Below, piece by piece: positions 21,261 to 59,764 of a DNA stretch of 64,000 nt. The notes beneath the pieces were generated by a model. The model made no database searches, was not told the DNA's origin, and was given only the letters and a program-made list of their open reading frames with translations. Position numbers and translations under genes: made by a program. Numbering within the stretch: position 1 is the stretch's first letter; the number at the start of each line of letters is the position of its first letter. The DNA lies in contig OZ024811.1 in assembly GCA_964017045.1 (NCBI GenBank), positions 14,783,812 to 14,847,811 on the forward strand, in the 5' to 3' direction. This stretch comes from Omphiscola glabra. Taxonomy: Eukaryota > Mollusca > Gastropoda > Lymnaeidae.

Positions 21261-22715
21261 CTTGATAAAACGAATGGAAAATGAGATGTTGTGATACAAT
21301 TTAAATCTAAATATTATGTTTAGAATACTAGGAGATCTTCACACGTGCGGAGACCTCCTGGCTGCTATGCGCCTTAATTTACCATTTTCACTTTTAAATT
21401 ATTGTATCTAGATTTTCTTGTTTATTACAGACCTATTTACTCTCAAACTCCTAAAATTGTACAATATCATATCAAAATCTTTCAATACGGTATCTTAATA
21501 GTAAATAAATAAACATACAGTAAAATTAATACAATCGCATTGCAGTGCCTCGTGGGATCGAGTTAAGCTGGCAAAGGTAGATGACCGATGTATATAAAAC
21601 ATTCTGCTGTCACTTTGATTTGCAGACGTGTATTTGCTATAGATATTAACTTATATTGAGTGGACGTAGAGATCACATTATCCCAGTCTATCACTGGTAA
21701 AAATTAAGTTACTGGTGAAATTTAACGTGGTTCAAACTCGAACTCAGATCAGCATAAAACAAGATGTATTTAAATAAGAATTAATTAACAAATGACAACA
21801 TTTTAAAAACCTACCTAGTAACTTAAGTAACTAGAGGTTGTTATTTTTAGAATAGAAAAAGATCGTTAAAAAAATAAGAAGAATCAATTTACATTAAGAA
21901 TATTCCCACTAATATATTTTAGTTTCTGATAACTGCCACAAACTTTAAATGGGTGAAAGAAAGAGGCGTGTTGGAAACATACGGGGACATTAAAAATTTG
22001 ATAATTTTAACAGATATTTTTTTACACGTAATGATATATAGGCCTATATTTATTTCGTTCCCTTTAAAATGTTGTTTTAAATTGAAATTTAAGTATTGAA
22101 TACATAATTTTCCTTTAACCTAGTATGAAATCTTTTTTTATATTAACTTCTTTTTATGCATTGTTTAATATATTTAATAAACATTCTTTTATGACTTAAA
22201 AAAAAGATGGCAAATTAAAATTAAAGCATGTGAAATAGAGTTTATAGTACAGACTGCTGAAGATGTTATCGTATTGTTAACATGAAACTTCTTAAATATA
22301 TTAAATTATCGAATACAACTACTACTTTACTAATTACTATTCAGCAGACTAGCAGACGATAATAGCAGGTGGCGGCGCCTTGTAAATTCAAAAAAAAAAC
22401 TAAAGTCCACTTCTTTCATAACTTTTATTGCTATAAATTTTATTTTGTTATTAAATGCATCAGGGTAAACCCAAATAATTATATATATTTATTAGGTATT
22501 CACTAAATGTTCATCGCATTAAACTATTATTTTATAAAGATACAGAAGACTTCTGCAAAGCAAATTCAACTATACTTGCCGGTGCCGGTAGTAGTGAGAA
22601 ATAAGTGAGTGGCTCGAGGCCGAGACTAAAATCAGTAAAATTTAAAATTATAGGCCTACGTGAGACTAGGCTTTACTATTTATATAGTGAAGAGATAACT
22701 ACAAGTCATCAAGCC

Positions 22716-22860
22716 ATGGAGAAGTGTTTTAAAAGTCCCCCTAAAAATGCAGTAACTATTGAGGAGTTTTTTACACCTGAAGAATATGCAGCTATACCTG
22801 CCTATGAAAGACTGCACTTGATGAGTTTGAGACAAAATTATGAAGTTCTTAAACAAGCTG
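22716..22860 (+). CDS. PRDM9: PRDM9 copy A, KRAB-like first coding exon
   Basis: Encodes 48 codons and ends in phase 1 at a GTAAGA donor. The core FTPEEYAAIPAYE...YE matches the FTKEEW...WE pattern of the PRDM9 KRAB box, and RQNYEVL matches the vertebrate KRNYNAL stretch. In vertebrate PRDM9 this domain mediates protein contacts (for example CXXC1 and EWSR1) rather than KAP1 repression. By hand count it differs from copy B at 5 of 145 bases, 4 of them silent. Confidence 0.88.
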
Positions 22861-25800
22861 GTAAGAGCAAATTAAAGACATGATTTTTATTAAGTAAAAG
22901 AGTCATAAATGTGCCGCATACAAAGTTAGCTTTTTGTCTAATGTTTTTGTCAGTAAAACTAAAACAAAAATTGCATGATTTTAAATTTTTTAATATAATA
23001 TGTATAGAGACTAATCTTCCCTACATATTAAATGCGTAATAATGTGAAATTTTCTACAGTCACAGCATTTAAAAAAATTAAAATTCAGTTTTTTGTTTTT
23101 TTTAAAATAGAAATTCAATTAGAGTGTATTGAGAAGAACTGGTGATTCCGATAAATTCTCATAACATCATTGAATGATCTCAAAGTTAATTTTTCTTAAC
23201 AGATGAGTTACATGATTGTATATTGATTGGAAAGATGAGTTTTTATAAAATAATTATCATGCAAGGTTGTGAGTTAAACATATTTGCAGAGATGTAAAGA
23301 TAACTTTTTGTTAAGTGTTGACTAGAAAATTACTAGAAATAGAGCTCTATTCAATAAAGTCTATTCCTTACTCTTGCAGGTTTACCTGTAAAACCCCCAG
23401 AATTCATGGTTAAGAAAAATACACAGGATAGATGCAGTGTCTACACCAGTAGTCCCTTCTCAGACTCAGAAGGATCAGATTCTGAATGGACGCCAGCTGC
23501 AGAAAAAGCAGCTGTAACTTCAGGTAAAATCAGTACATATAATCATTCATTTTCTTTAGTTATCTGCGATTTAAATACATATTTTTCACCCATATTATGC
23601 CAAAATTGTAGGTCTATTAACTAAAATTGGATTTCTTTATGTTTTCTCCATACTTAAATTTTTAACAAAATATTTTATTAAATTTTATTGCATGTTTCTG
23701 GAAGGTACAAGAAAAAAACAGGTCACCTCTTGCAAAATTCCAGGAGATAGAGTTGACTCCACTGAAAGCAAAGATGAAAAGTCAAAAAAAAGGAAAAAAG
23801 TTAGATTTGAAATATTTTGTATTACAATAGATAAGATAATTTATTAATTGCAAAATAGGGTACTTATAATTATTGTTTAGCAGAGATAATATATGCTTCA
23901 ATTTTGACATTTAAAAAAATGTGTTGACATATTTTACAATCTTTAGGCAGCAAATTTAAACTAAATGTTTGTTTAGTGCTTGAATTAGGAAATAAAATAT
24001 GATGTCATTTAATATAGCTTAGGCCTACTTATTCAATTCAATGAACTATTAGTGCTTATTTCAAAACTTTGCTAGTTCAAGAAACAAGTCAAAGTTAATG
24101 AGAAAGAAGAGGAGAGTGAGGAGGAAGTCCATATATATCCATTTAGGATGAAAAGAATAACACATTTTATGTCTCTAGCCATCCCTGAAGATGATGATTT
24201 CTTTTGTAAGTAGGCTATAGGAGCTTAATGTCTGTACGCTTATTCTATTTTTGAAGTTTAAAATACTTATCTTAAGTTTCAAGCTACTAGTTTTGTATTT
24301 ATAATATTGATTGAACTAAAAACAATGTGTAATATTAAAAATAGTGTTATTAATTCTTGTCAAATGCAATTCAAAAATGACATTTAGTATGTCTAAAAAA
24401 AACTATGAACAACAATTTTATTCTATAGTCTTTCCTGTACAACTAGGTTCCCACTATTATAGTTTGAAAGCTTTTAGCATAACGATTCAAAGGTAAAACA
24501 GGTTAGAGAGGACATACGAGTAAACATAGTTGTAGTTTATTATCTTGTTCATTACCCTAAGTTTCATTGTAATAATTGCTCCAAATTTATCTTAGATCAT
24601 TTTTTAAATACAGAAACTGATCATGTAGTGATTGTAGTGTAGTCAGTATGCTAATCTCACAAATGGAATGAGTTAAATTTTGTATCTCACTAATAAACTC
24701 TTTTAATCTCACTTTATTTGTCATCAACTCATAAGCTAACCTTGTGACTTTAGATCAGATGGTCATTTATTAATTTTTAAAGTCTTTTATTTAAAACTTT
24801 TTGGGGGGGGGGGGGGGTGTCGCTGGCTATGGTATTTTGGTTTGATGAAGTTATGCTTGAATTTAGGTGTTACTATTATATTAATGTAATAGTTTCTTTT
24901 TTCAGTTTGTGAAGAGTGCAATTTTGAGTATATGTCTGAGTGCACATTACATGGCCTTGTTCCAGTAGAAGATCGAAAAGTAAGAATTGAATAATTTTAT
25001 ATTTAATGTCTTTAGTGTAGGCTACTAAAACATATTTAGTTTCGTGTTTAGAGCTAATCAAATGCATTAGACTTTAATTAAATTTGGGAGCTTCTTCATC
25101 AAATTTATTATAACTTTTTTTAAAAAACCTCAAATAATCTTTAAATAATCTCTAAACTTAAAGCTGTCTGATAGCAATCAATTGAAAACATTAATTATTG
25201 AAAGTCTAGATCTAATCCATTATACAAGATATATCTCATAATATTAATATTATTGTTCGGGGTGGGTGATGAAAAGAAAGCTGTTTCATCAACTTCCCAC
25301 ATATTTTTTTTTTAAAAAAGAAACAATTGGTTTAAGTAAAAGAGTAGGCTATAGATACTAAAAAACAAAATACAAATTTAATCATTTAGGCTAATGCCTA
25401 TTTAAATAAAACAAATACAAAAATTTAAAGTTTAAATTTTATATACATAATATATTTTATATGCTACCTAATAAGTGAACGAAAAGGAAAGAAAAAAAAG
25501 TAGGCATCTGTTATTTACAAAAACTCAAGGGCCAGGGGGTAGGGGGATGACGGCGACTTCATTTAAGTCTTAAAATTTCACTATAACAAAAATATAAATG
25601 CTATATTCGCTTTATATAGTTAATTTACAAAAACAACTTTTTCTCAAAATCATCTAGAAGATACATAGTAGGTTTTGGTGCCAATGTGTGTTTAAAAGCA
25701 TGGAGATAGCTTCTAATTGGAAAAGGGCTTTTATTTAAAAATACATGTTTGGTCACAGTTTGTGCCATAAGGATGGACCATGTGTTGTGAATAATGTTGC

Positions 25801-28800
25801 CAGGAATTAGGTTGTGGGGATAAATAGCTATAATTAATTTGGACCTTTCACTAATGTTAATAAAAATATATACAATTTAGTTAAACAATAAAGCAAACAC
25901 ACTTCCATGGCTCCTCATCTCATTACGCTGGAAGTAGAGGTTTATTGTGAACTTTTAATTTCAATAAGAATTTAGCACCAATAGAAAAAATAAAAGACTA
26001 CTTTTGAAAAGCAGACATATTAATTCACATTCTGAAATGCCATTTTTAAACCCATCTATATGTTGTAGAGAGAAAATAAAGGTTTATTGGACCTAGACTT
26101 TTGCAACTTCTTGTTTTTTGCAATCTAGAGAACTAGGACATAAGTATTGCGCTATTAATTTGTGGGTAAAAAATTCGTATAACAACATGCTCAGGTCACC
26201 ATTGACTTAAATCAAACAAATTATTGCTTTTTCTATTTTTTTTTTTTTACGATCAATGGAAAAAGCCGTAGGTACATAAAAACAGCCAAATATCATGTTT
26301 TTCTACTTCCAATGAAACATCCCAATTATGCTCATTTTTTCAATGATTTAAAAAGCTTCTTTCTTAAATAAGACCAGATGCCAGCAGTTACCATTGTAAG
26401 AATGCAATTATACAAAATAACTTTTTTCTTCATGTCACATAAACATCTGTCAGACTGTTAACTTCTAATGTAGTTCAAATTTCCCACTCATTCAACAGAG
26501 CATTTAATAAAATACACCCTGTACAATTTTTAGGTCCCCCCAGAGTGTGAGAAAGGTTTGGACTCAAGCTACTGTTGGAAAACTTTGCCCCAAGGTCTTA
26601 CCATTAGGAAATCAAAAATCCAAGGTGCTGGTCTGGGAGTTATAGCAACTAAATTTTTTCCAGCTCGAACAAGATTTGGACCATATGTTGGAAAGAAAGA
26701 GAAAAATGAAGATGTCGCCCATGAGTTTGGCTATAGTTGGCAAGTATGTCATGGGTAGGATGCAACAAGTGTGTCAAATAATAAGTCAAGTTAGACTTTC
26801 TAAATAATATAATAATCTTGATTTATGTGTACCATACAACATATCAAAATTTTGAATAATATATAACTGATAGATAAAGCTTTTATCCTGTCCAGACACA
26901 TGCATATGCAAAGAGCTTCTGCCTTGTACACTGCAGTAAAATTCCCATGGTCATTAATAAGTCTACATTTATAGCTCATCAATATCAATTAAAAGAAAGA
27001 CAAGTAATGATATCCTCTACTCAATGGAAGGCCTATAAACTTAGAGATTGAAAGGAAGGTAAATATTAAGCAGAAAATGATCAAGGGGTTGCTCACAAAG
27101 TTATAATGAGATTACTAAGCTTGGGCTCATATTTATGTAGAAAACTTGTTCACAAGTATGCCACTTATGCATGAGTTAGCCAAAAATTGTACACATATAA
27201 CCTGAACCATAGAGAGGCTATAGTGGACCCAATTAATAAACTTATCTTATATTGTGATAAGAGTTTATAGTGGAGTACCCTATTAATTACTCTTAGCTTA
27301 TACTTATATTATGTGAAAAGAAATTACAGTACGCAGTTATATAGTGTGAACCCTTGAAAAGTGACTTGTGAAATATGCAAAGCATTTTAGCCTGTACCGG
27401 TGAGATGGATATATTTATTTGACAGTAAAGTAATGTATTTAAAATATTTGCCTGGATTCCTTCAATATTCATTAATAATCTCATGATATCTTTAACATAT
27501 TTAGATCTATAAAGATGGCAAGCCTTCTCACTTTGTTAATGCCAGCGACCCAAGTGACTCTAATTGGATGAGATTTGTCAACTGTGCTAGGCATGAAGAC
27601 GAGCAGTGTGTAACTGCCTACCAAAATGCAGGAGAAATCTTTTACAGAACTCACAAGGATGTTTATCCTGGCACAGAAATACTGGTGAGACATTGAACCA
27701 AGATAGTTACTGTGGCTGTTTATTGAAACAGCTTGCATTAGCTTTAAGGCCATGGCTGCTTATCAAGCAATTTTCAGTGTTGTATGCATAGATTATTAGA
27801 TAAAAGGTCACTAATATAAAACATATGCACTGAATTGGGGTGGTGGTTGTTGATTTTGTGTACGCCTGAACTCAGTTTTGACCACTCTGCCACCCAGCAC
27901 CCTGACTGCTGTTTTTTATAAAGGCCTATTTCTTGTTAGCACTTAGAGAAACATTTGTGTCTTCAAAAAAATACCACTACAATAATACATTATCAAATAA
28001 ATTTTAAAAGCAATAAAAATGATTGCTGTTTGATCGACAACAAACATCATTATGCAGCAGCAAAAATTCAAAATCGTCACTATCAATCACTGAGATTTTT
28101 ATCAAGCAGATGTTGGCAATCGATGACACAATGAATAGTAATGACAGTTGGCACTGCTTATTTTAAAAGAAACTACAAACCCAAGGTAGTAACCTGTCAT
28201 TGATGGTTCTCCATCAGTTGCAGGTGCAAGCATGTTATTTTGGAGAATTTACTTGTCATCCAAGAATTGCTCAGCAGTACGAAACACCGACTCCCCTTTA
28301 GGTATCTGTTCTATCCGTCTGGCATATAATAATACTTCTTAAACCAAAGTCATCTCAACCAGTTGCAATGCAAGTTCTGTTGACTTTAGTGTACTGCACA
28401 AAGTATTTTCAATATTATTATTCTTAGCCATTTTATTTATAGGTCTTTGGACTGAACTGTTTCTGAAATGAACCATCTTAATTATATCATTTGGTGAATC
28501 AGGCTAAGGAGCACTCAAAAATTCACTAATTTGCAATCAATCATGAAATCTCTTATGTTAACCATTAATGAAGGGCTCAAGGGAAAAACCAGTGATGTCA
28601 GGTTTTGAGAGTTTTGAGAAAAATTGATAATAAAGTTTAAAAATTCCTCATAAAAGTATCAAAATTTCTAAATATTTATTTGACTACGCTGCTTTTTTAA
28701 TTGGACCTATGTGTCATATTATTCTATTGAATGGAATGTAGCCACATGGGTGATATCTTGCAAAACATATTCAAATTGTGGGTCTCTTTTGATGTTTGTA

Positions 28801-31108
28801 ACTCTCATCCTGGTATCCAGGATGAAATTAATTCGATTAACAGTATTGTAGAAATTGAATTAAACTATATAAGAGTGTGTTTTTTAAAAAATAATTGCTT
28901 AGTTGTTTTTATCTTTTAAGGAATTGAAAATGATATTAAGGTTACTTAAGTGGTTGGTCATTTGTTACTAGTTGCTTCATTTTCCCCTACTTAGCCCAAG
29001 TTACAGATAACCAGCTAATAATGTTAGAGCTTTGCATTAAATACTTTGTGCATTCCTAACATGTCACAAATTCTAGTTTGTAACAAGGGGTTGTTCAAGT
29101 AAAAAACAATTGGAATTAATAATAAAATGTATCCAATTATGAATCTGTCTTACTAGGATGATTTTGGAGTAAAATATACAATATGTGATGTAAAAGTAGT
29201 TTAAAAATAAAGAGCCTAGTATACTAAGTTACAACAGTAGAGGTTCCCAGCCTATGGAATGTGACCTCCAATTGATTTGCAAAGGGATTTCTTTGGGGTT
29301 CGCTGTCTGAAACATTATACTAAGAGAAATGTTATTTTAATATTTTTTTTAATTTCCCAGGAAGCCTTTGGTTTGCTAAGGAATTAGCTTGATCTCAGAA
29401 TCCCAGCAGAAAAATCCCACGTGACAATATTGAATTTTGGGGGTTCGCCAAACAAAGTTCAAAAACAATCCTGAAGAAAAGTATCTCCTGGCGAGATGCT
29501 AGAAATGCCTAATTAGCTGCATTATCTGAACATCTGGAGAATTTAGCATGTGTTGTGTTTGATTAAAATTTAGTTATATCAACAAAGAAGTGTATTTTTA
29601 TCAAAGAATTGATTTACCAACGATAAATTAGGTCCTAAGCTCTAAAACACTATAATACTTGAACGCTTAGAAAATAATGAGATGAATATGGACTAATATG
29701 TTAAAGAAGAGCTTCAGTCTGCTTTGTTAAGAAGTTCGGAGAAATTGACTTATTTGTTCTCTAAACTGAATAAGTTGTATGTTTTATATATTGTTGTCAG
29801 GTATACAACAATGACACATCATTTATTTGATGTATTTATATTCATATCAGGTATACTATGGGGACAGTTATGCCAAAGAGTTAGGAATAGACATGCAGAC
29901 TGTTGGCAAAGTTAGCAGAATATCTTCATCAAATGTGTCAGAACATCCAAGGGTAAATGACTTCATCATTCCAACAAGCAATGCTTGTGTGCTTGATCCT
30001 AGTCAGGATGACAGAGATGGTAGTCACTCAGGAATAGTTGAGGGTATACTTATATTTTGAAAATTTATAGTACTTGGACTAGATATTATTTACATTTTGT
30101 AAAAATATAGAATAATGCTTGTTTGTCTTCAATATAAAAAGACTATTGGTTTCCGATTTTGTCATTTATAATAATGTTCTTATAGAAACTAAGTCTTATA
30201 ATTGAGTAATACATAAAATGATTTTTTTTTTCATTTCTAGGGTTCAATCCACTTTTATTTTTGTTCTTTTAATAATATTGCTTAACAGTAGTTAAAATAA
30301 ATTAAGTAACTTATTAACTGTTTATATCATTTTCTTATGTCTTGCAGATATTTTCAAGTGCAAATTTTGTACTATTGCATTCTCACATCAAATATACCTT
30401 GAGAATCACCTGAGAAGAAAACACAGTGATGACTATTGGAAAATTAAGCCGGTGGAAGTATCCAGAGAACAAACTGACCAAGCTAATGGTGTGGAAAAAT
30501 ATCCATTACAAATAAGTCTAAAGAAGAAAGAAATCTTTCCTGTTAGAGTCAGACGAATCAAACAGAAAAAAACATATCCAGGAGAAAAACCTTTCAACTG
30601 TGATGTCTGTGGAAAAGGTTTTACACAAAATAGTCATCTAACTCAACACAAAAGGACACATTCAGGAGAAAAACCTTTCAAATGTGATGTCTGTGGGAAA
30701 GGTTTTACACAAAGTGGTCCTCTAACTGTACACAAAAGGACACATTCAGGAGAAAAACCTTTCAAATGTGATGTCTGTGGGAAAGGTTTTACACAAAGTG
30801 GTCCTCTAACTGTACACAAAAGGACACATTCAGGAGAAAAACCTTTCAAATGTGATGTCTGTGGGAAAGGTTTTAAACAAAGTAACAATCTAACTGCCCA
30901 CAAAAGGACACATTCAGGAGAAAAACCTTTCAAATGTGATGTCTGTGGGAAAGGTTTTAAACAAAGTAATAATCTAACTGCCCACAAAAGGACACATTCA
31001 GGAGAAAAACCTTTCAAATGTGATGTCTGTGGGAAAGGTTTTACACAATCTAGTGGTCTTAATCAACACAAAAGTACCCATTCAGGGGGAAAAAATGTTC
31101 AAATGTGA
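22716..31108 (+). CDS. PRDM9: PRDM9 histone methyltransferase / zinc-finger protein, tandem copy A
   Basis: Nine exons with GT-AG introns join into one open frame of 643 codons plus stop: 22716-22860, 23380-23523, 23705-23799, 24076-24205, 24906-24979, 26534-26743, 27505-27684, 29851-30043, 30348-31108. Domain order is KRAB-like (residues 1-49, VTIEEFFTPEEYAAIPAYE), SSXRD-type region with SDSEWTP and EDDD motifs (49-171), zinc knuckle CX2C-X8-CX2H (about 173-187), PR/SET domain (197-345; NWMRFVNCAR and YYGDSYAKELGI), an isolated C2H2 finger, a basic linker, then six C2H2 fingers. This is the full architecture of vertebrate PRDM9, which binds DNA through its fingers and trimethylates H3K4 (and H3K36) in meiotic cells to place recombination hotspots. 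The start ATG is the first one shared with copy B; an upstream in-frame extension in A is not conserved. The third exon's acceptor is weak. A meiotic role here is inferred from the family. Confidence 0.92.
26534..27684 (+). CDS. PRDM9: PRDM9 copy A, first two PR/SET exons
   Basis: Exons 26534-26743 and 27505-27684 are both phase 0 to phase 0. They encode the SET N-lobe (GAGLGV, RFGPYVG, YSWQ) and core (NWMRFVNCAR, FYRTHKDVYPGTEIL). The third SET exon (29851-30043) supplies VYYGDSYAKELGI. All three segments align with human PRDM9 without gaps at the S-adenosylmethionine and catalytic regions, so methyltransferase activity is plausible. Confidence 0.88.
28000..29300. other. Copy-A-specific sequence in the SET2-SET3 intron
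   Basis: Sequence from about 27860 to 29350 has no counterpart in copy B, whose intron rejoins homology at CTTTGGTTTGCTAA. It begins with a SINE-like GACCACTCTGCCACCCAG patch and looks like old transposon, unidentified. Confidence 0.5.
30348..31108 (+). CDS. PRDM9: PRDM9 copy A terminal exon with zinc-finger array
   Basis: One exon encodes an isolated C2H2 finger (30359-30424, CKFC...H-X4-H), a basic linker and six tandem fingers joined by THSGEKPF linkers, then a stop at 31106-31108. The single-exon array after a lone finger mirrors vertebrate PRDM9. Contact residues (-1,2,3,6) in order are QSHQ, QGPV, QGPV, QNNA, QNNA, QSGQ. Confidence 0.92.
30599..31081 (+). repeat. 84-bp coding minisatellite (zinc-finger array, copy A)
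   Basis: The six fingers are an 84-bp tandem repeat (483 bp from the first Cys to the last His = 5 x 84 + 63). Units are almost identical outside the helix codons. Units 2 and 3 look like a recent duplicate pair, and units 4 and 5 differ by AAC/AAT at one Asn codon. Such homogenised arrays change by unequal exchange. Confidence 0.9.
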
Positions 31109-31262
31109 TGTCAGTTGGAAAGGTGTTATATGAAGTGGTAAAATAACTATGCATGAAAAGAGACATTCAGGGAGAAAAACTTTTCAAATGTGATTCTGTG
31201 GAAAATCTTTTACACAAACTCTAAATATAACAAAAAAACTTTAACTAGTCACAAAAAACATT
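31109..31262 (+). pseudogene. Relic zinc fingers after the PRDM9-A stop
   Basis: After the stop, finger-like DNA continues out of frame: TTCAAATGTGATGTC, GAAAAGAGACATTCAGGG and a second TTTTCAAATGTGATTCTGTG segment, then CACAAAAAACATT. A frameshift in the GGGGAAAAAA run before the stop ended the array. The same relic sits after copy B (54992-55147), so it predates the duplication. Confidence 0.75.
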
Positions 31263-31498
31263 TGAACAAGCTTAATACTTGCATGATAAAAACATTGTAC
31301 ATCTTGTTTTTTCAAGAGTAGACATCCAGATAAGACTTTTATGTGACACAATTATAAATATTAAATATGCATACATTAATTTTCTATGTTAAAGCCCTAT
31401 TCATAGTGTCATGTGAAATTTAGTCTAAGATAATCTAGTCACTAGTTATAATCTGTATTCTATGTCAGTTCCTACCCTCAATGTTGAATGCATTAGAA

Positions 31499-31504
31499 AA
31501 TAAA
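31499..31504 (+). promoter_or_regulatory. Possible polyadenylation signal, PRDM9-A
   Basis: AATAAA about 390 bp after the stop, conserved in position in copy B. No transcript evidence. Confidence 0.35.
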
Positions 31505-31959
31505 AACAGTTGGTTCAAGTTTTCTAATTTTTTTATTTTATATACATTTGCTGTTAATTGTATATTTTATGTAGATGTTCGGACAATTTTATATATTTAA
31601 TTAATTATTATCTTTTGGCTATTTAATAGGTCAACTTGAGAATATTCTTTGTACTTCTTAAGTGCATAGCAAGTGAAAGATCATTGTCTATATCAGTAGA
31701 TCATCCCTCTATTAGTGAACTCATCACTTCTGCTTTGCAAGTGAAATACTTATTTTTTATTTCTCCTAATTAAAAGCGTTTTGTATGAAAAAATTGATCA
31801 GTTACTTCTATTCTTTTGCATCAGGGTGTTATTAAGGGCAAGAACACTGTTAAAGGTGATCAGCACAATGCTTGCTTGAAAAGGATGGTCCCATAAGCTT
31901 TTATATATATTTATGTATAGTCAATATTTATTTTATATACACATATATTGTATAAAGGA

Positions 31960-32400
31960 GAAAATTTGTTTGTTCTTCATGGATGGATTGATCTTGACCA
32001 AGCTTGGCACCCATATCCACCATTATCAAGAATTAATTACCATTTCTGGGGGGGGGAGGGGGGGGGGGGGTTCGAACATTTCAAAAATATTCCCCTTTTT
32101 TCTAATATATGCTATATAAATCAAATTATCAATTGCATCTATGGATGTATCTAGACCAAACTTAGTGCACATACACTTAACTATCTATATTCAAATATTG
32201 AAGGGTACTGAGCTCATAATATCCACCCCTGCTGGGCTGTGGTCCCAATTTCATTTATCCTTATACCTATATAAGCTGTCATAGGTCTTATGCGAATGAA
32301 TTGATTAGTAGGCCTATCTAGGACAAGCTTAGTAGCAATATCCTTCATAGTCCATATTAAAATATCGGCGTATTTATAAGTAATAATATCCTCTCCATTC
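31960..32400. repeat. Degenerate ~170-bp repeats after PRDM9-A
   Basis: The motif GATTGATCTTGACCAAGCTT and later diverged forms (TCTAGACCAAACTTAG, TCTAGGACAAGCTTAG) recur about every 170 bp. Block B keeps one unit (about 55870). Function and family unknown. Confidence 0.45.
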
Positions 32401-33442
32401 GTGATGGGTCTGGAAGTTTTACTATTATATAAATGGCTGATTTTTAGCAGGGCCCCCTGTTCAAGGCATAACCAAGACGTCAGATTATGGAAGGTTCTAC
32501 AACTTAAATGAATAGGAAATGTTTAAAAGTTATGTCATGTCATTTTGATTTTGTTGTAGCTTTTTTTTTTCCTACTCGAAAAATGATTTCGAAGAAAAAT
32601 TAGTCACGCGTTTCTGTTGGGGGGGGGGGGGGGGGGAATAAACTAAATCTATAAATTTTCAGAAAGTAATATTTTTTCCATGGAAGCATAGTATTATATT
32701 ATTATTGGGATTTAAAAAGGGGATATAGAATATTTTTTTGACCATGTAATTTTCGATTTCCGTAAAATATTAGAAAATAACTTTGATTGTTTTTAAGAGT
32801 CCGAACTTATCAAAATAGTTTCGGGTTTTTAGAGTTGTCAGCATTGCTCATTCTTATATAGGCCCTATATATATTATTGGGATTTAAAAGCTGTAGAAGT
32901 GTTAATTTAGTTCTATAGATTTCTATGCCTTCCTTAGGATTTGCTTATTATCGTTAATTTGACATTTCCTAAGTTTCTATTTTATTCTAGAAGATTTAAT
33001 TTTTTTTCCTATGATTGAGGGTTTTTAAGATTAAAGAAATTTTCAAATTCAGTTTTACTTTAGTTCCATAGATTTCTCTAACTTCCTGCGAAATTTCTCA
33101 GTACCGGAGAATTACCATTTTATAAGTTTCATGAAGTTTCAAAATTATTCTAGTCGAGTAATTCGATTTTCTTAAATAAGCGTTTTAGGATTGTATAAAT
33201 TTCCTGATTATTTTCTTTTTGTCTTTATAACTTTCAATTAATTTCTTCGAATAATATGAAATAAGTTTGAAAGATTCTAGAAGGTTACAAACTAATTTTC
33301 TCTTATGGCCTAAGCCTATGCTACACACATAAAGTTAAAGTCATAATCCTACTGGGAACAGGATCCCACCAGGAATGTGATCCCGACAGGGAATGGGCTC
33401 CCACCGGAACAAGATCCAGTGGGAAAGAATGGAATTCTTCAG

Positions 33443-35020: not shown

Positions 35021-35099
35021 ACTATCTTCTATATTTTGAGGGACCACGATCAATTTATTGATCATTCTGACTCCTGGTTTGCATTCTCTTAGTTGAGTT

Positions 35100-36680: not shown

Positions 36681-36742
36681 TGGGGTTGAGAGAAAGAACA
36701 TATAGTCGCACTTTTTCTCAGCAGTTTCTCCCACAGAATCAT

Positions 36743-45843: not shown

Positions 45844-46183
45844 CAGGGGTGGGCAAACTTGTTGTGCTGAGGGCCACATTGAAATATGTAAAACTATTTG
45901 GGGGCCGCATGTATATTATGTCCAATTTTTACGTGTCGATAAACATTTATCTATATTAAAAATCGCATTTTAGCATTACAAGTACAAGACAAAAGTCAAG
46001 GACTGTTTTTAAAAAATTGAAAATTAGAAAAATGTTGATACAAAATGTAAAAACAATTATAACGGTACATGAAATTCTGTAAAATTCAACAATATGACTT
46101 AAAAACAAAGAGTTTTTTAAATTATAAAATGCCTCAGAGGGCCGCATAAAATCAAATGCCGGGCCGTAGTTTGCCCACCCCTG
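45844..46183. mobile_element. hAT MITE with perfect 8-bp target duplication
   Basis: Ends CAGGGGTGGGCAAACT and AGTTTGCCCACCCCTG, flanked by CTATAGAC (45836-45843 and 46184-46191). It lies about 290 bp upstream of the PRDM9-B start codon and is absent from block A. Confidence 0.92.
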
Positions 46184-46274
46184 CTATAGACTATAGTATT
46201 TGTATACCATTAAAATTAAGCTTTACCCTTTAAAAATGCAAGCTCACACACATGTGTGTATCACAGACAGTAGA

Positions 46275-46400
46275 TCAGAGGGGAATAGATGTCCCCTAGT
46301 GTCAGACCAGCATGGGCATCAAAATGGACTTTGATAGTATTTTATTGATTAAAATAATGGGCTTCAGAGTTAAAGGGGGGGGGGGGGGGCTAGAAAAAAA
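46275..46400. mobile_element. Diverged hAT MITE fragment
   Basis: CAGAGGGGAATAGATGTCCC and TAGTATTTTATTGATTAAAA parallel the element at 39591-39798; it ends in a poly-G run. Only about 70 bp from the PRDM9-B start, so the proximal upstream sequence of B is transposon-derived. Confidence 0.6.
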
Positions 46401-46471
46401 ATAAAAATTGTGTTCAAGGTTTGCAATGCTTCCCTTTATATAGTGTTGAGATAACTACAAGTCATCAATCA

Positions 46472-49400: not shown

Positions 49401-52400
49401 TAAAATTGTATGAGTTTCAATTTTAATAACATAATGTATTTTATATGTTACCTAATAAGTGAACGAAAATGAAAAAAAAAGTAGGCATCAGTAATTTATA
49501 AAAATCAAGGCTGCGGGGGGGGGGGGATTACAGTTAAAGACAATACAGGGAACAATATTGAAGCTATTTAAAGAGTGCTTTTGATTAACTTACCTATTCT
49601 TTAAACAAATTAGAGGAGGCCACTTGCCAAACCTGCTGAGTCACTTTTAAAAAAAAAATGAGTTATCTATTATAGCTGTCTTGTTAAGTGTCAATCTACA
49701 GTATTTTATGTATTTAATGAATCAAAAACTTCATTTAAGCCTTAAAATTTCACTATAACAAAAATATAAATGCCATATTCGCTTTATATAGTTAATTTAG
49801 AAAAACAACTTTTTCTCAAAATCATCTAGAAGTTACATAGCAGGATTTGGTGCCAATGTGTGTTTAAGAGCATGGAGATAGCTTCTAATGGGAAAAGGGC
49901 TTTTATTTAAAAATATATATTTGGTCACAGTCTGTGCCATAAGGATGGACCAGTTGTTGCGAATAATGTTGCCAGGAATTAGGTTGTGGGGATAAATAGC
50001 TCTAATTAATTTGGACCCTTCACTAATGTTAGTAAAAATATATACAATTTATTTAAACAATAATACAATAAAGCAAACACATTTCCATGTCTCCTCATCT
50101 CATTACCCTTGACGTAGATGTTTATTATGAACTTTTAATTGCAATAAGAATTGAACACCAAATTAAAGACTACTTTTGAAAAGCAGACATTCTGAAATGT
50201 CATTTTTAAAAACATATATGTTGTAGAGAGATAAAAAAGAAATATTGGACCTATAGGAAATGAATAAAACAAAGTAAGGTTAAACATGAAAAAAGGAACG
50301 CAACAAAACAACGAATGTTTTAGCACTTAAGACTCCGTCGCTTTTCTAATTTCCTATTGTACTAACCTGATTGCAGTCTCTCCCATTATTACCCTTTATT
50401 AGACATAGACTTTTGCAACTTCTTGTCGTTTGTAATCTGTAGAACTAGCACAGAAATATTGTGCTATTTTTAAATTGTAGGTAAAAATTTAGTACAACAT
50501 GCATGGGTCCCCATTGACTTAAATCAAACAAATTATTACGTTTTCTATAACTTTTTGTTTTACAATCAATGGACTTAAGCCATAAGTACATAAAAACAGC
50601 CATATCATTATTTTTTTTTCTACTTCTAACTAATGAAATAATAAAACATGCCAATTATGCTAGTTTTTCAATGATCTAAAAAACTTCTTCTTAAATAAGA
50701 CCAGACGCCAGCAGTTACCATTGTAAGAATGCAATAATACAAAATAACTTTTTTCTTCATGTCACATAAACATCTGTCAGACTGTTAACTTCTAATGTAG
50801 TTCAAATTTCCCACTCATTCAACAGAGCATTTAATAAAATACACCCTGTACAATTTTTAGGTCCCCCCAGAGTGTGAGAAAGGTTTGGACTCAAGCTACT
50901 GTTGGAAAACTTTGCCCCAAGGTCTTGCCATTAGGAAATCAAAAATCCGAGGTGCTGGTCTGGGAGTTGTAGCAACTAAATTTTTTCCAGCTCAAACCAG
51001 GTTTGGACCATATGTTGGAAAGAAAGAGAAAAATGAAGATGTCGCCCATGAGTCTGGCTATAGTTGGCAAGTAAGTCATGGGTAGGATGCAACAAGTGTG
51101 TCAAATAATAAGTCAAGTTAGACTTTCTAAATAATATAATAATCTTCATTTATGTGTAGTATACAACATATCAAAATTTTGAATAATATATAACTGATAG
51201 ATGCAGCTATTATCATGTCTAGTCACATGCATATGCAAAGAATGTCTGCCTTGTGCACCACAGTAAAATTCCCATGGTCATTAATAAGTCTACATTTATA
51301 GCTCATCAATATCAATTAAAAGAAAGACAAGTAATGATATCCTCTACTCAATGGAAGGCCTATAAACTTAGAGATTGAAAGGAAGGTAAATATTAAGCAG
51401 ACAATGATCAAGGGGTGCAAAACAGTTATATTGAGATTACTAAGATTGGGCTCATATTTATGGAGGGTGTACCACCTGTTTGTAGAAAATTGTACACATA
51501 TAACCGGAACCATAGAGAGGCTATAGTAGACCCAATTAATTAACCTTATCTTATATGTAAAGAGAAGTTAAAGTGGATGACCCTATTAATTACCCATAGC
51601 TTATATTATGTGAAATGAAGTTACAGTACAGTTATATTGTGTGAACCATTGAAAAGTGTCTTGTGAAATATGCAAAGCATTTTTGCCTGTACGGTGAGTT
51701 GGATATATTTATTTGACAGTAATGTAATGTATTTAAAATATTTGCCTTAAAGATTCATAGATAATCTCATGATATCTTTAACATATTTAGATCTATAACG
51801 ATGGCAAGCCTTCTCACTTTGTTAATGCCAGCGACCCAAGTGACTCTAATTGGATGAGATTTGTCAACTGTGCTAGGCGTGAAGACGAGCAGTGTGTAAC
51901 TGCCTACCAAAATACAGGAGAAATCTATTACAGAACTCACAAGGATGTTTATCCTGGCACAGAAATACTGGTGAGACATTGAACCAAGATGTTTACTTTT
52001 GCTGTTTTTTGAAACAGCCTGCATTAACATTAAGGCCATTGCTGCTTATCAAGCAATTATCAGTGTTGTATGCATATATTATTAGATAGAGGGCCACTAA
52101 TATAAAGCGTGTGCACTGAATTGGGGCGGAGGTTGTTGATTTTGTGTATGCCTGGGTATGGCCGGGGGTTGTATCGACAGCAGTATGACATTTACTCACA
52201 AACTCTGCAATAATGAGCCTTAAATTCTAACATTCCGATTATATCTCTAATGCTGTACAAATATCTAATGCAGTGGTTCTCAAACTCCCCCCCCCCCCCC
52301 CTTTTGAGATCATAAACGTATCCTTAGTGCCGCCCTATGTTAATCCATTAAAGTAATTCCAGAATATTAGTTTTGCACAAGCCTTTAAGGAAAATTATAA

Positions 52401-54991
52401 AATCACAAAATGAAAAAGTTTAACTTTTATTTCAATAATTTACAAATAAAGTTGATTACCTTCCAACGATAATACAACCCCCACTTTTAAAGTAGGATTG
52501 TTATAAATCAAGAATTTTATAATGACTTAATATTAATAACTAACTTTCTTCACTGTTCAATACTTTGGGTGGGCTTTGTGAAGTAATATAATCTTTTCAA
52601 TGTCTGATAGAAAGCCACTTAACACGACTTTTAAATGGCCTGGTTCAGTAATCTGGAGCCTATTTCTTTGCTTGGAGAAAATTTTAAGACCACATGCCAA
52701 CAACTAGGATGTTGGAAAGCAACAAGAAGTCTCTCAACAACTTTCCACAGTACAGGATAATGATTTGTAATTACCTTTTGAAGCTAAAACTCTTGGTATG
52801 AGCTCCTGAACTTTAGCTTCTGCTCTATATCATTTTTAAGCTCAATTAAATCTCTTGAACTGTCAGTATTCGAAAAATGGATTTATCCACCAAACTGGAA
52901 TGTTAATCAAAAGTAGATCTTAAATCGCTCAGACATATCTTAATCTAGCATATCCAACTGGTAAAAAACTACTTAAAGATCATTATCTGGTATCCCACCT
53001 TTCTCTTCTAGTTCAGACATGCTTGGAAATTGGAACAACTCAAAATGGCCATAATGTGTTTGTGAAAATCTGTGACATGCTAATTTATTTTTCTAAAATA
53101 AGAAAATTGAACCTGCTAATTCGCAAGATGGGAATGTTTCTTAGAAAGTCTTTGGTTTGCTAAAAATTAGCTTGATCTCAAAATCACAGCAGAGAAATCC
53201 TACTTGACAAACTGAATTCTGGGGGTTGCCAAACAAAGGTAAAAAACAAGGCTGAAGCTAAGTAGCTCCTGGCAAGAGCTCCTTTCCAGTGTAAAACCTA
53301 GGGCTAAAAATGCCTAATTAGCTGACTATCTGAACATCTAGAGAATTTATGTGTTGTGTTTGATTAAAATTTCATTATATCAACAAAGAAGTGTATTTTT
53401 ATCAAAGAATTGATTTACCAAGGATAAATTAGTTCCTAAGTTCTTAAACACTATTAAACTTCATGCTTAGAAAATAATGAGGTGAATGTGGACTAAGAGG
53501 GTAAAGAAGAGCTTTAGTCTGCTTTGATAAGAAATTATGAGAAGTTGACTGATTTGTTCTCTAAACTGAATAAGTTTTATATTGTTTTATATATTGTTGT
53601 CAGGCATACAATAATGGCAGATGATTTTTTTGATGTATTTATGTTCATAACAGGTATACTATGGGGACAGTTATGCCAAAGAGTTAGGAATAGACATGCA
53701 GACTGTTGGCAAAGTTAGCAGAATATCTTCATCAAATGTGTCAGAACATCCAAGGGTAAATGACTTCATCATTCCAACAAGCAATACTTGTGTGCTTGAT
53801 CCTAGTCAGGATGGCAGAGATGGTAGTCACTCAGGAATAGTTGAGGGTATACTTATATTTTGAAAATTTATAGTACTTGGACTAGATATTATTTACATTT
53901 TGTAAAAATATAGAATAATGCTTGTTTGTCTTCAATATAAAAAGACTTTTGGTTTCTGATTTTGTCATTTATAATAATGTTCTTATAGAAACTAAGTCTT
54001 ATAATTGAGTAATACATAAAATGATTTTTTTTTTCATTTTTAGGGTTCAATCCACTTTTATTTTTGTTCTTTTAATAATATTGCTTAACAGTAGTTACAA
54101 TAAATTAAGTAACTAACTGTTTATTTCATTTTCTTATGTCTTGCAGATATTTTCAAGTGCAAATTTTGTACTATTGCATTCTCACATCAAATATACCTTG
54201 AGAATCACCTGAGAAGAAAACACAGTGATGACTATTGGAAAATTAAGCCGGTGGAAGTATCCAGAGAACAAACTGACCAAGCTAATGGTGTAGAAAAATA
54301 TCCATTACAAAAAAGTCTAAAGAAGAAAGAAATCTTTCCTGTTAGAGTCAGACTAATCAAACAGAAAAAAACATATCCAGGAGAAAAACCTTTCAACTGT
54401 GATGTCTGTGGAAAAGGTTTTACACAAAATAGTCATCTAACTCAACACAAAAGGACACATTCAGGAGAAAAACCTTTCAAATGTGATGTCTGTGGGAAAG
54501 GTTTTAAACAAAGTAGTAATCTAACTGCCCACAAAAGGACACATTCAGGAGAAAAACCTTTCAAATGTGATGTCTGTGGGAAAGGTTTTACACAAAATGG
54601 TGAACTAACTCAACACAAAAGGACACATTCAGGAGAAAAACCTTTCAAATGTGATGTCTGTGGGAAAGGTTTTAAACAAAGTAATAATCTAACTGCCCAC
54701 AAAAGGACACATTCAGGAGAAAAACCTTTCAAATGTGATATCTGTGGGAAAGGTTTTAAACAAAGTAATAATCTAACTGCCCACAAAAGGACACATTCAG
54801 GAGAAAAACCTTTCAAATGTGATGTCTGTGGGAAAGGTTTTACACAAAGTGGTGATCTAACTAGACACAAAAGAACACATTCAGGAGAAAAACCTTTCAA
54901 ATGTGATGTCTGTGGGAAAGGTTTTAAACAATCTAGTGGTCTTAATCAACACCAAAGGACCCATTCAAGGGGAAAAAATGTTCAAATGTGA
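46472..54991 (+). CDS. PRDM9: PRDM9 histone methyltransferase / zinc-finger protein, tandem copy B
   Basis: Same nine-exon structure as copy A, with identical exon lengths and phases except the last: 46472-46616, 47061-47204, 47684-47778, 48055-48184, 48889-48962, 50861-51070, 51791-51970, 53654-53846, 54147-54991. It gives 671 codons plus stop; the 28 extra residues are exactly one more C2H2 finger. The SET motifs NWMRFVNCAR and YYGDSYAKELGI are unchanged. No stop or frameshift was found, so it does not look like a pseudogene. Protein differences from A cluster in the SSXRD exon, the following linker, the SET domain and the finger contact residues; the KRAB exon has one conservative change (V to I). 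The gene lies about 23.8 kb downstream of copy A in the same orientation, inside the second half of the segmental duplication. Whether both copies are expressed in the germ line cannot be told from sequence. Confidence 0.92.
52271..53140. mobile_element. Copy-B-specific insert in the SET2-SET3 intron
   Basis: Begins with the hAT-type end CAGTGGTTCTCAAACT followed by a poly-C run. The rest is AT-rich with no intact frame and is missing from copy A. Confidence 0.5.
54147..54991 (+). CDS. PRDM9: PRDM9 copy B terminal exon with zinc-finger array
   Basis: Same layout as in copy A, with the isolated finger at 54158-54223 and seven tandem fingers. Contact residues in order are QSHQ, QSNA, QGEQ, QNNA, QNNA, QGDR, QSGQ. 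Fingers 4-5 and the outer two match copy A; fingers 2, 3 and 6 are specific to copy B. One finger has CDIC in place of CDVC. Confidence 0.92.
54398..54964 (+). repeat. 84-bp coding minisatellite (zinc-finger array, copy B)
   Basis: Seven 84-bp units (567 bp = 6 x 84 + 63). Unit order cannot be turned into that of copy A by a single gain or loss, so the two arrays have rearranged or mutated independently since duplication, or have exchanged units. Confidence 0.9.
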
Positions 54992-55147
54992 TGTCAGTTG
55001 GAAAGGTGTTATATGAAGTGGTAAAATAACTATGCATGAAAAGAGACATTCAGGGAGAAAAACTTTTCAAATGTGATTCTGTGGAAAATCTTTTACACAA
55101 ACTCTAAATATAACAAAAAAACTTTAACTAGTCACAAAAAACATTTG
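54992..55147 (+). pseudogene. Relic zinc fingers after the PRDM9-B stop
   Basis: Counterpart of the relic behind copy A, with the same frameshift next to the stop and nearly the same sequence. The ancestral gene therefore had at least two more fingers before the terminal frameshift. Confidence 0.75.
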
Positions 55148-55384
55148 AACAAGCTTAATACTTGCATGATAAAAACATTGTACATCTTGTTTTTTCAAGA
55201 GTAGACATCCAGATAAGACTTTTATGTGACACAATTATAAATATTAAATATGCATACATTAATTTTCTATAATGTTATAGCCCTATTCATAGTGTCATGT
55301 GAAATTTAGTCTAAGATAATCTAGTCACTAGTTATAATCTGTATTCTATGTCAGTTCCTACCCTCTATGTTGAATGCATTAGAA

Positions 55385-55390
55385 AATAAA
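55385..55390 (+). promoter_or_regulatory. Possible polyadenylation signal, PRDM9-B
   Basis: AATAAA at the position matching that in copy A. Confidence 0.35.
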
Positions 55391-56734
55391 AACAGTTGGT
55401 TCAAGTTTTCTAATTTTTTTATTTTATATTCATGGACGTTGTTGTTAATTGTATATTTTATGTAGATGTTCGGACAATTTTATATATTTAATTAATTATT
55501 ATCTTTTTGCTATGCAATAGGCCAACTTGAGAATATTCTTTGTACTTCTTAAGTGCATAGCAAGTGAAAGATCATTGTCTATATCAGTAGATCATCCCTC
55601 TATTAGTGAACTCATCACTTCTGCTTTGCAAGTGAAATACTTATTTTTTATTTCTCCTAAATAAAAGCGTTTTGTATGAAAAAATTGATTAGTTACTTCT
55701 ATTCTTTTGCATCAGGGTGTTATTAAGGGCAAGAACACTGTTAAAGGTGATCAACACAATGCTTGCTTAAAAAGGATGGCCCCATAAGCTTTTATATATA
55801 TTTATGTATAGTCAATATTTATTTTATATACACATATATTTTATAAAGGGGAAAATTTGTTTGTTCTTCATGGAGGGATTGATCTTGACCAAACTTGGCA
55901 CATATATCCACCATTATCCAGAATTAATTATCATTTCTGGGGTGTTTCGAAATTTCGGCAAATTATGGAAGGGTCTACACCGGGTCCCTTTCTTAAACTT
56001 AAATGAATAGGAAATGTTTAAAAGTTATTACATTTTGTTGCAGTTTTTTTTCCGTTTCGAAAAATGATTTCGAAGAAAATTAGTCACGAGTTTCTTCGGG
56101 GGGGGGGGATAAATTAAATCTATAAATTTTCAGAAAGTTATATTGTTTTCCATAGAAGAATATTATATTATTATTGGGATTTAAGAAGCTTTAGAAGTGT
56201 TAATTTAGTTCCATAGATTTCTATGCCTTCCTTAGGATTTTCTCATTATAGGTAATTTGTCTTTTCATAAGTTTCTATTTTATTCTAGAAGATTCAATTG
56301 TTTTTCCATGAGGATTTTAAGATTAAATAAATGTCCAATGTTAATTTTACTTTAGTTACATAGATTTCTTTACCTTCCTGCGAAATAAGTTTGATGACGT
56401 TTCTAGATTATTCTAGTCGTGTAGATTCGATTTTTTTTAAATATACGTTTTAGTTTTAGGATTATATAAATTTCCTTATTATTTTCTTTTTGTCTCTATA
56501 ACTTTCAATGAATTTCCTCGTATAATATAAAATAAGTTTAAAAGATTCTAGAAAGTAAAAAGCTAATTTTCTTTTATGGCCTAAGCTACATAGGCCTAAA
56601 TAAAATTGAAGTCATAATCCTACTAGGAACAGGATCCCACCAGGAATGTGATCCCAACAAGGAATGGGCTCCCACCGGGAACAAGATCCAGTGGATCAGA
56701 ATTTATTTATTCTATATTTTGAGGGCCCTGGATC

Positions 56735-56805
56735 AATTGCCTGGGAGGTTGGGATTGAGCTCCAGACAAACAGCTGAGTTTATACCACTCGGCCACCCGA
56801 GGATG
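56735..56805 (-). mobile_element. tRNA-like SINE head (block B)
   Basis: Orthologous remnant of the SINE in block A, with GGGTGGCCGAGTGGTA on the minus strand and a shortened body. Confidence 0.6.
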
Positions 56806-57115
56806 GTTGGTGTGCTTAAAACAGCTGCTTGCACCAATAAGAATATGGGGTGCCAAAGATTATGATCAGCACGGGATAACAACATTGGAAACTGAGCACG
56901 TGGTCAGTGGTAGCTAACGCTAGAAGTTATTGAGACTGGTGCAAGAAGTCGAAGTTTAACTTGGACAAGAGAACGCCTGAAGCGGAATCAACTGCAGATC
57001 AGAGGGGGACGTCGTCGTAGGGAAAGTCAGAAGCAGTGCTGACGATCTTGATTTCTCGCGAATGAGAACGCACGTCAGTGAAGCGCAACGAGAATTCATT
57101 CTGCAGTGTTTACAG

Positions 57116-59345
57116 CACACTGATGCATTTTACAGCACACTGATGCATTTTACAGCACACTGATGCATTTTACAACACACAGATGCATTTTACAGCACAC
57201 TGATGCATTTTACAGCACACTGATGCATTTTACAGCACACTGATGCATTTTACAGCACACTGATGCATTCTACAGCACACTGATGCATTCTACAGCACAC
57301 TGATGCATTCTATAGCACACTGATGCATTCTACAACACACTAATGCATTCTACAACACACTGATGCATTCTACAACACACTGATGCATTCTACAGTACAC
57401 TGATGCATTCTACAACACATTGATGCATTCTACAACACATTGATGCATTATACAACACACTGATGCATTCTACAGCACACTGATGCTTTCTACAACACAC
57501 TGATGCATTATACAAGACACTGATGCATTCTACAGCACACTGATGCATTAAACAGCACACTGATGCATTCTACAACACACTAATGCATTATACAACACAC
57601 TGATGCATTATACAGCACACTGATGCATTATACAACACACTGATGCATTATACAACACACTGATGCATTCTACAGCACACTGATGCATTCTACAGCTCAC
57701 TGATGCATTATATAGCACACCGATGCATTATACAGCACACTGATGCATTCTACAGCACACTGGTGGATTCTACAGCACACTGATGCATTCTACAGCACAC
57801 TGATGCATTATACAGCACACTGATGCATTATACAGCACACTGATGCATTATACAACACACTGATGCATTATACAACACACTGATGCATTCTACAGCACAC
57901 TGATGCATTATAAAGCACACCGATGCATTCTACAGCACATTGATGCATTCTACAGCACACTGATGGATTCTACTGCACACTGATGCATTCTATTCTACAG
58001 CACATTGATGCATTCTACAGCACACTGATGCATTCTATTCTACAGCACACTGATGCATTCTATTCTACAGCACACTGATGCATTCTACATCACACTGATG
58101 CATTCTACAGCACACTGATGCATTATAAAGCACACCGATGCATTCTACAGCACATTGATGCATTCTACAGCACACTGATGGATTCTACTGCACACTGATG
58201 CATTCTATTCTACAGCACATTGATGCATCCTACATCACACTGATGAATTCTATTCTACAGCACACTGATGCATTCTATTCTACAGCACACTGATGCATTC
58301 TATTCTACAGCACACTGATGCATTATACAGCACACTGATGCATTATACAGCACACTGATGCATTATACAACACACTGATGCATTATACAACACACTGATG
58401 CATTCTACAGCACACTGATGCATTCCATAGCACACTGATGCATTCTACAGCACACTGATGCATTATATAGCACACCGATGCATTATACAGCACACTGATG
58501 CATTCTACAGCACACTGGTGCATCCTACAACACACTGATGCATCCAACATCACACTGATGCATTCTATTCTACAGCACACTGATGCATTCTGTTCTACAG
58601 CACACTGATGCATTCTATTCTACAGCACACTGATGCATTCTACATCACACTGATGCATTCTACAGCACACTGATGCATTATAAAGCACACCGATGCATTC
58701 TACTGCACATTGATGCATTCTACAGCACACTGATGCATTCTACAGCACACTGGTGGATTCTACAGCACACTGATGCATTCTACAGCACACTGATGCATTA
58801 TACAGCACACTGATGCATTATACAGCACACTGATGCATTATACAACATACTGATGCATTATACAACACACTGATGCATTCTAAAGCACACTGATGCATTC
58901 CATAGCACACTGATGCTTTATACAGCACACTGATGCATTATATAGCACACCGATGCATTATACAGCACACTGATGCATCCTACATCACACTGATGCATTC
59001 TATTCTACAGCACACTGATGCATTCTATTCTACAGCACACTGATGCATTCTATTCTACAGCACACTGATGCATTCTACATTACACTGATGCATTCTACAG
59101 CACACTGATGCATTATAAAGCACACCGATGCATTCTACTGCACATTGATGCATTCTACATCACACTGATGCATTCTACAGCACACTGATGCATTATAAAG
59201 CACACCGATGCATTCTAAAGCACATTGATGCATTCTACAGCACACTGATGGATTCTACTGCACACTGATGCATTCTATTCTACAGTACATTGATGCATTC
59301 TACAGCACACTGATGCATTCTACAGCACACTGATGCATTCTGCAG
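57116..59345. repeat. 20-bp minisatellite, expanded (block B)
   Basis: Same unit family as in block A but 2230 bp long, about twice the size. Many units are 25 bp through an extra TTCTA (CATTCTATTCTACAG). Multi-unit blocks containing TAAAGCACACCGATG followed by CACATTGATG and GGATTCTACTG recur near 57910, 58130, 58680, 59110 and 59200, showing higher-order duplication. Confidence 0.96.
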
Positions 59346-59764
59346 TGGGGTGAGTGAAACGAACACAGTCGCATATTTTCTCAGCTCTCTCTCCCATAGA
59401 ATCAGCTTTGCTTCGAAAGCCCGCACGCTGGTCTCCATGTTCGTGATTAGCACGTCACGTCATTGCAGCCTCATGTAAACTTCGTTGAGGTGAGATCTGA
59501 TATCGTCGGTGAGGAAGCTGAACCCACAGAGCCAAACCTCGCCTGAGAACTTTTGAAAGCCCTTGAAGCACCTATCACTGGCGAAGGAAACGATTTCATG
59601 GTGGAGGGCGAAGACAAGTACAGGATTTACCTATAAGCTAAATAAGATACAGCTTAGGGCCTCACAATCTTCCAGCTATAAATTTTCTATTTTTCTTTGA
59701 CCCTTCATTGAAGTTCATGAGATTTCAAACGGTAGCGGGCCTCTAGACTTTGTATAGCTTAGGG

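Follow-up and report, generated by a model that had tools for sequence, protein, structure and literature searches.

The 64,000-base stretch of contig OZ024811.1 analyzed here (the window; 35.6% G+C) carries two adjacent genes, A and B, that the sequence supports as a tandem pair of PRDM9 genes with full architecture. We consider it likely that a full-length animal PRDM9 underwent a genuine tandem segmental duplication, that the copies have exchanged sequence by ectopic gene conversion, and that they probably recognize overlapping but different DNA motifs. The gene models were built from sequence alone. Gene A (22716 to 31108, plus strand) encodes 643 residues and gene B (46472 to 54991, plus strand) encodes 671, identical to the lengths of the two adjacent, same-strand open frames (643 and 671 codons) in the initial annotation. 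Both spliced models have nine exons and only GT-AG introns, with identical phases (1,1,0,1,0,0,0,1). In both copies, splicing is called with least certainty at the exon 3 acceptor and the precise start of exon 4. The KRAB region occupies two exons, the SSXRD-position segment one, the SET domain three, and the finger array one, which is the layout given for PRDM9 in PMC11703093.

A PDB sequence search with residues 1 to 432 of protein A returned 15 distinct sequences at E values up to 0.001. Its three best matches are named PRDM9 (5.3e-38, 7.5e-36, and 1.5e-35), and the next matches of the PR/SET domain and knuckle are PRDM14 (5e-23), PRDM4 (4e-22), and PRDM11 (2.2e-21). By best PDB match, the PR/SET domain of copy A is therefore nearer to PRDM9 than to other PRDM proteins. 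Pfam places the PR domain, SET, and C2H2 families above the cut-off in both proteins. Alignments used a human PRDM9 sequence that we take to be UniProt Q9NQV7; its numbering places the catalytic tyrosines at 276, 341, and 357, and its PR/SET part matches the PDB alignment as printed. Tyrosines at residues 247, 313, and 329 of both proteins align to Y276, Y341, and Y357. Ahead of the PR/SET domain, both copies have a zinc knuckle with C-x2-C-x7-C-x2-H spacing that aligns to PRDM9. A lone finger follows the PR/SET domain, and an 84-bp tandem finger array lies in the last exon, in both copies; the lone finger of A aligns weakly (9.8 bits) to PRDM9 in 4ijd.

The KRAB region aligned to human PRDM9 with scores of 104 (A) and 107 (B), against shuffle means near 27 (z of 16.3 and 16.8), and the score was reached by none of 2,000 shuffles for either copy. 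The SSXRD segment sits at the expected position in both proteins and scored 46 (A) and 45 (B), against about 22.5 for shuffles (z of 5.7 and 5.4). These scores, which come partly from a P-x-DDD run, were reached by 0 of 2,000 shuffles for A and 1 of 2,000 for B. Residues 1 to 96 of A had no PDB sequence match at E values up to 10. The ancestral KRAB of PRDM9 is distinct from modern KRAB and has been traced to protostomes (PMC8835667), and SSXRD is weakly predicted in some fish (PMC5519329).

The duplicated block, delimited by blastn self-comparison (matches longer than 150 bp), includes the gene, its 3' flank, and a 20-bp minisatellite (Table 1). Its outer 5' part (22017 to 22481 in A) pairs at only 72 to 77%. 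Identity between A and B is 87.5 to 99.0% for exons and 64 to 98% for introns (83.5% for intron 1, 72.7% for intron 2, 95.2% for intron 3, and 64.1% for intron 7). The minisatellite unit is repeated 57 times in A and 108 times in B; its length therefore changed after the duplication. A tblastn search with both proteins (E of 0.01) for a third PRDM9 copy or remnants found no match in the window starting outside 22000 to 31300 and 46000 to 55200.

Identity between the copies is highest in a tract that starts at exon 8 and runs about 0.9 kb beyond the array. Exon 8 is identical at 191 of 193 positions, intron 8 at 295 of 300, exon 9 ahead of the array at 242 of 245, and three stretches of the 3' flank at 292/304, 293/300, and 337/350. 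The bordering sequence is less similar (435/490 at the end of intron 7, and 68 to 87% past 32.2 kb where alignable). As a comparison set we used introns 4 to 6, leaving out introns 1, 2, 3, and 7; their identity is about 91%, versus 96 to 99% in the tract outside the array. Noncoding differences number 37/1254 in the tract (a count that includes the last 12 coding bases) and 271/2891 in introns 4 to 6 (Fisher P = 6.7e-15). The intron and the 3' flank match almost as closely as the exons do, so protein-level selection fails to explain the tract. The pattern suggests that gene conversion recently spanned the finger exon, or that part of the block was duplicated again later. Ectopic conversion between the copies would have acted latest in the segment that runs from exon 8 through the finger exon into the 3' flank. 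Because the array lies inside the tract, its differences most likely arose after the conversion, unless the conversion left the array out.

The two arrays have different numbers of fingers and different DNA-contacting residues in their helices. At helix positions -1, 3, and 6, fingers 1 to 6 of A read QHQ, QPV, QPV, QNA, QNA, and QGQ, and fingers 1 to 7 of B read QHQ, QNA, QEQ, QNA, QNA, QDR, and QGQ. QPV is private to A, QEQ and QDR are private to B, and the QNA type is common to both. Numbered from 1, the first fingers are identical in DNA, A2 equals A3, and A5 equals B4. More than 90% identity was found for 18 of 36 finger pairs within arrays and 24 of 42 between them. The finger backbones are near-identical, and the array differences cluster in the helix. 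Among the nine inner fingers, variation affects 5 of the 8 codon columns of the helix segment and 2 of the other 20 (hypergeometric P = 0.009). Pairwise codon differences, from pairs that are not independent, are 102 nonsynonymous to 3 synonymous in the helix segment (-2 to 6) and 8 to 8 elsewhere. We suggest from these differences that the copies probably recognize overlapping but different motifs. The two DNA specificities proposed in the initial annotation are thus possible, since the inner fingers differ, but they are tempered by the recent homogenization of the finger exons, the common first finger and QNA type, and the glutamine at every -1 position.

A decayed further finger follows each array (31097 to 31231 in A and 54980 to 55114 in B), behind a shared one-base shift. 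The arrays were therefore formerly longer, and because both stop at the same shift, this end was either fixed before the duplication or spread by conversion. The 20-bp minisatellites were considered as finger targets with motifs from a recognition code and were dropped, as the best matches covered 7 of 11 and 10 of 17 positions, versus 11 and 14 elsewhere in the window.

Indels and substitutions were compared in stretches judged to be well aligned (A coordinates 22700 to 25300, 25617 to 25900, 26300 to 27100, 27417 to 27800, and 29517 to 31950), leaving out poorly aligned sequence. Noncoding sequence differs at 323 of 4,433 positions with 40 indels, and coding sequence at 68 of 1,932 with 1 indel. 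That single coding indel is a whole-finger difference, and no indel breaks the frame in the 1,932 aligned coding bases. At the noncoding rate, neutrality of both copies predicts about 17.4 coding indels (P = 4.9e-7), and neutrality of one predicts 8.7 (P = 0.0016).

Several results weigh against our reading. Pfam found no KRAB or SSXRD family in the full proteins (all 24 of 24 families at E values up to 1 for A; the best 25 of 29 for B), nor in the N-terminal and SSXRD pieces of A and B at E values up to 10. Of the architecture first described, the PR/SET domain, knuckle, lone finger, and array stand, and KRAB stands by alignment; SSXRD has weaker support. A second patch of high identity (95 to 96%), in intron 3 and the windows at 23.8 to 24.4 kb, is unexplained by a single conversion event, and the 95% identity of intron 3 suggests more than one. 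In the arrays, helix position -1 is Q in every finger of both copies. The diversity statistic, computed by the formula of PMC5519329 at positions -1, 3, and 6 (the position set of that paper may differ), comes to 0.333 in A and 0.292 in B. Among the entries of Table 1 of that paper compared here, complete vertebrate orthologues range from 0.331 to 1.000, with one lacking a value, so that A lies at, and B below, the lowest of them; partial orthologues range from 0.158 to 0.331, apart from a single value of 0.524. When position 2 is included, the statistic rises to 0.493 (A) and 0.434 (B), and omitting the first and last fingers gives 0.500 and 0.389.

The codon comparison points the same way. 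Over codons 1 to 472, the NG86 ratio of nonsynonymous to synonymous divergence (dN/dS) is 0.033/0.053, or about 0.62; of the codon differences, 36 are nonsynonymous and 13 synonymous. Codons 1 to 97 account for 13 and 9 of these, and codons 98 to 472 for 23 and 4, with ratios of 1.38, 0.92, and 1.03 in three regions. With a ratio near or above 1 and few synonymous changes, dN/dS gives no signal of protein constraint past the KRAB exons; relaxed constraint, positive selection, and chance are all compatible with codons 98 to 472. As a proof of function, dN/dS therefore failed. The indel test for one neutral copy is not decisive by region (P = 0.02, 0.078, and 0.34), and scaling the indel expectations by 0.053/0.073, by hand, lowers them to about 12.6 and 6.3. 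Synonymous divergence in exons 4 to 9 also looks lower than that of the adjoining introns (the 4 differences in codons 98 to 472, versus introns 4 to 6). Because synonymous sites are less diverged than introns, the lower exon divergence is not attributable to protein constraint alone, and exon conservation may partly reflect conversion.

These codon figures and the regional indel results count in favor of another explanation, in which one copy alone directs recombination and its partner, a paralogue that is recent, relaxed, or repurposed, is open by chance, like many vertebrate PRDM9 duplicates. Salmonids offer a parallel, since all species but one keep a single full-length alpha1 despite tandem copies (PMC11703093). 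However, both copies have kept all their exons and GT-AG splice sites, along with the catalytic tyrosines and knuckle residues, and the complete lack of frame-breaking indels sits poorly with the number expected for one neutral copy. We regard this explanation as a real possibility, at somewhat below even chances. It is unlikely that A and B are PRDM9 orthologues serving germ-line gene regulation and not the placement of recombination. The low diversity statistic and the invariant -1 residue would fit such a role, but differences confined largely to the helix on near-identical backbones would not. If the animal is mollusc-like, two bivalve reports also argue against it: PRDM9 is testis-specific alongside SYCP3 and MSH4 (PMC9716669), and in oyster it is high in the male gonad, with Zcwpw2 (PMC12111275).

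The sequence also supports A and B as two loci on one chromosome, not alleles. Noncoding divergence in the well-aligned stretches is 17.8% around exons 1 and 2, 6.8% for 23800 to 27800, and 3.5% for 29517 to 31950, and thus about 7 to 18% outside the conversion tract in the stretches compared. The middle parts of intron 7 are non-homologous. The sequence between the blocks (36751 to 44588) and that after block B (59414 to 64000) had no matches to each other at E of 1e-4. Positions 1 to 22016 gave four matches of 51 to 263 bp to the former, dispersed and not collinear with the block, and three dispersed matches of 36 to 74 bp to the latter. These three lines of evidence largely answer the earlier concern about uncollapsed haplotypes. 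Some invertebrates are highly heterozygous, and a portion of the block is 96 to 99% identical; however, with this divergence outside the tract, flanks that do not carry the homology onward, the differing intron 7, and a window without any N, it is very improbable that an assembly artifact placed two haplotypes of one locus end to end.

PRDM9 has been described in invertebrates. Oliver et al. (2009, PMC2779102) reported Prdm9 with concerted evolution of the fingers, as in A and B, in a gastropod (Lottia gigantea), an annelid (Capitella sp. I), and a sea anemone (Nematostella vectensis), with a male gonad expressed sequence tag supporting the Lottia gene. The three Capitella sequences lie on three scaffolds and are called alleles or rapidly diverging paralogues. 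The available text of that paper describes no tandem pair on one molecule in these animals, whereas A and B are in tandem on one contig. Lottia has 23 finger sequences, versus 6 in A and 7 in B, and selection in Nematostella acts at -1, 3, and 6, whereas -1 does not vary here. Full-length homologues are known in cnidarians and sponges (PMC13186367), and Mulinia PRDM9 has 710 residues and 10 zinc fingers (PMC10451705). According to PMC6116924, non-vertebrate orthologues have not been carefully examined.

Like human and mouse PRDM9, A and B have a KRAB-type start, a zinc knuckle, a PR/SET domain with three tyrosines, a lone finger, and an 84-bp finger minisatellite in one terminal exon (84-bp repeat, PMC6116924). 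They differ from mammalian PRDM9 in an SSXRD-position segment too divergent for Pfam and in being two adjacent complete genes, and they have fewer fingers than mouse PRDM9 (13 or 14; PMC2779102). Salmonid Prdm9 alpha paralogues share tandem duplication and gene conversion events with A and B, and a few species likewise have two full-length copies; most copies are truncated or pseudogenized, whereas A and B both look intact (PMC11703093). Bos taurus, a mammal, likewise has more than one complete PRDM9 per genome, with one chr1 copy and one chrX copy marked as directing recombination (PMC5519329, Table 1). Its copies are partly on different chromosomes, and their statistic is 0.414 to 0.684, above both values here.

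The initial annotation considered the combination of a mollusc-like genome, full architecture, and a tandem pair to be new. The literature does not support that claim, since invertebrate PRDM9 and repeated vertebrate duplication (55 independent events in the set of PMC5519329), including tandem copies in salmonids, are already in print (PMC2779102, PMC13186367, PMC5519329, PMC11703093). For an intact tandem full-length PRDM9 pair in an invertebrate, we found no description among the papers listed by searches of an open-licence library, which most subscription papers and preprints fall outside. Since invertebrate PRDM9 is already known, the pair is a useful further example and not a new kind of gene. 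What it adds is the combination of divergent arrays with a conversion tract that surrounds the finger exon.

Table 1. Positions in the window of the two genes, their duplicated blocks, and associated repeats
Feature	Position	Strand	Basis
Duplicated block, copy A: gene A, 3' flank, 20-bp minisatellite	22017..36750, approximate	+	blastn self-comparison
Duplicated block, copy B	44589..59413, approximate	+	blastn self-comparison
A exon 1: start codon and ancestral-type KRAB-A	22716..22860	+	splice model; alignment to human PRDM9
A exon 2: end of KRAB region, acidic ..DSEWTP motif	23380..23523	+	splice model, alignment
A exon 3: basic linker, acceptor least certain	23705..23799	+	splice model
A exon 4: SSXRD-position segment	24076..24205	+	splice model, alignment; unrecognized by Pfam
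A exon 5: zinc knuckle CEECNFEYMSECTLHG	24906..24979	+	splice model, PDB sequence search
A exon 6: PR/SET part 1, GPY aligned to Y276	26534..26743	+	splice model, PDB sequence search
A exon 7: PR/SET part 2, YRT tyrosine aligned to Y341	27505..27684	+	splice model, PDB sequence search
A exon 8: PR/SET end (YYGDSY, aligned to Y357) and linker	29851..30043	+	splice model, PDB sequence search
A exon 9: lone finger, linker, 6-finger array	30348..31108	+	splice model, finger calls
A finger array, 6 x 84 bp	30593..31096	+	repeat and finger analysis
B exon 1: KRAB-A	46472..46616	+	splice model, alignment
B exon 2	47061..47204	+	splice model, alignment
B exon 3, acceptor least certain	47684..47778	+	splice model
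B exon 4: SSXRD-position segment	48055..48184	+	splice model, alignment
B exon 5: zinc knuckle	48889..48962	+	splice model, alignment
B exon 6: PR/SET part 1	50861..51070	+	splice model, alignment
B exon 7: PR/SET part 2	51791..51970	+	splice model, alignment
B exon 8: PR/SET end and linker	53654..53846	+	splice model, alignment
B exon 9: lone finger, linker, 7-finger array	54147..54991	+	splice model, finger calls
B finger array, 7 x 84 bp	54392..54979	+	repeat and finger analysis
Putative gene-conversion tract: exon 8 to about 0.9 kb past array	A 29851..32051; B 53654-55942	.	identity pattern, 96-99% outside array
20-bp minisatellite, 3' end of block A, 57 copies	35536..36680	.	repeat analysis
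20-bp minisatellite, 3' end of block B, same unit as in A, 108 copies	57111..59345	.	repeat analysis

Other elements lie outside the duplicated blocks. A long reverse transcriptase open reading frame (19117 to 20610, plus strand; Pfam RVT_1, E of 9.5e-27), probably from an element of the long interspersed nuclear element (LINE) type, lies about 2 kb upstream of gene A, and a second reverse transcriptase fragment is found at 14552 to 14998 (minus strand; RVT_1, E of 2.6e-07). Remains of hAT-type transposase (Dimer_Tnp_hAT) are present in 60006 to 60776 (E of 3.6e-08), within 60006 to 61385 on the minus strand, and in 17023 to 17457 on the plus strand (E of 4e-05); the adjoining frames at 60777 to 61385 gave no confident Pfam family. 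A tandem array at 12468 to 13153 has a period near 68 to 70 bp, with copies about 95% identical.

PRDM9 in mammals and salmonid fish selects the sites of chromosome recombination. By analogy with these proteins, each protein of the pair would bind DNA through its own finger array, the PR/SET domain would methylate lysines 4 and 36 of histone H3 (H3K4 and H3K36) on nearby nucleosomes, and KRAB and SSXRD would mark the bound sites for meiotic double-strand breaks. A bolder and doubtful proposal is that both copies are active hotspot-setting loci within one invertebrate genome and serve as a mutual finger reservoir, in which ectopic conversion moves the whole finger exon and each array then drifts to a new specificity. 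If true, having two loci would let the genome escape the erosion of its targets. PMC13186367 treats the role of PRDM9 in placing recombination outside vertebrates as an open question. The conversion tract provides a baseline (about 3% noncoding divergence) for gauging array turnover, and an animal with two intact full-length copies that differ mainly in their inner fingers would be a natural test, as hotspots should bear both motifs if both copies act.

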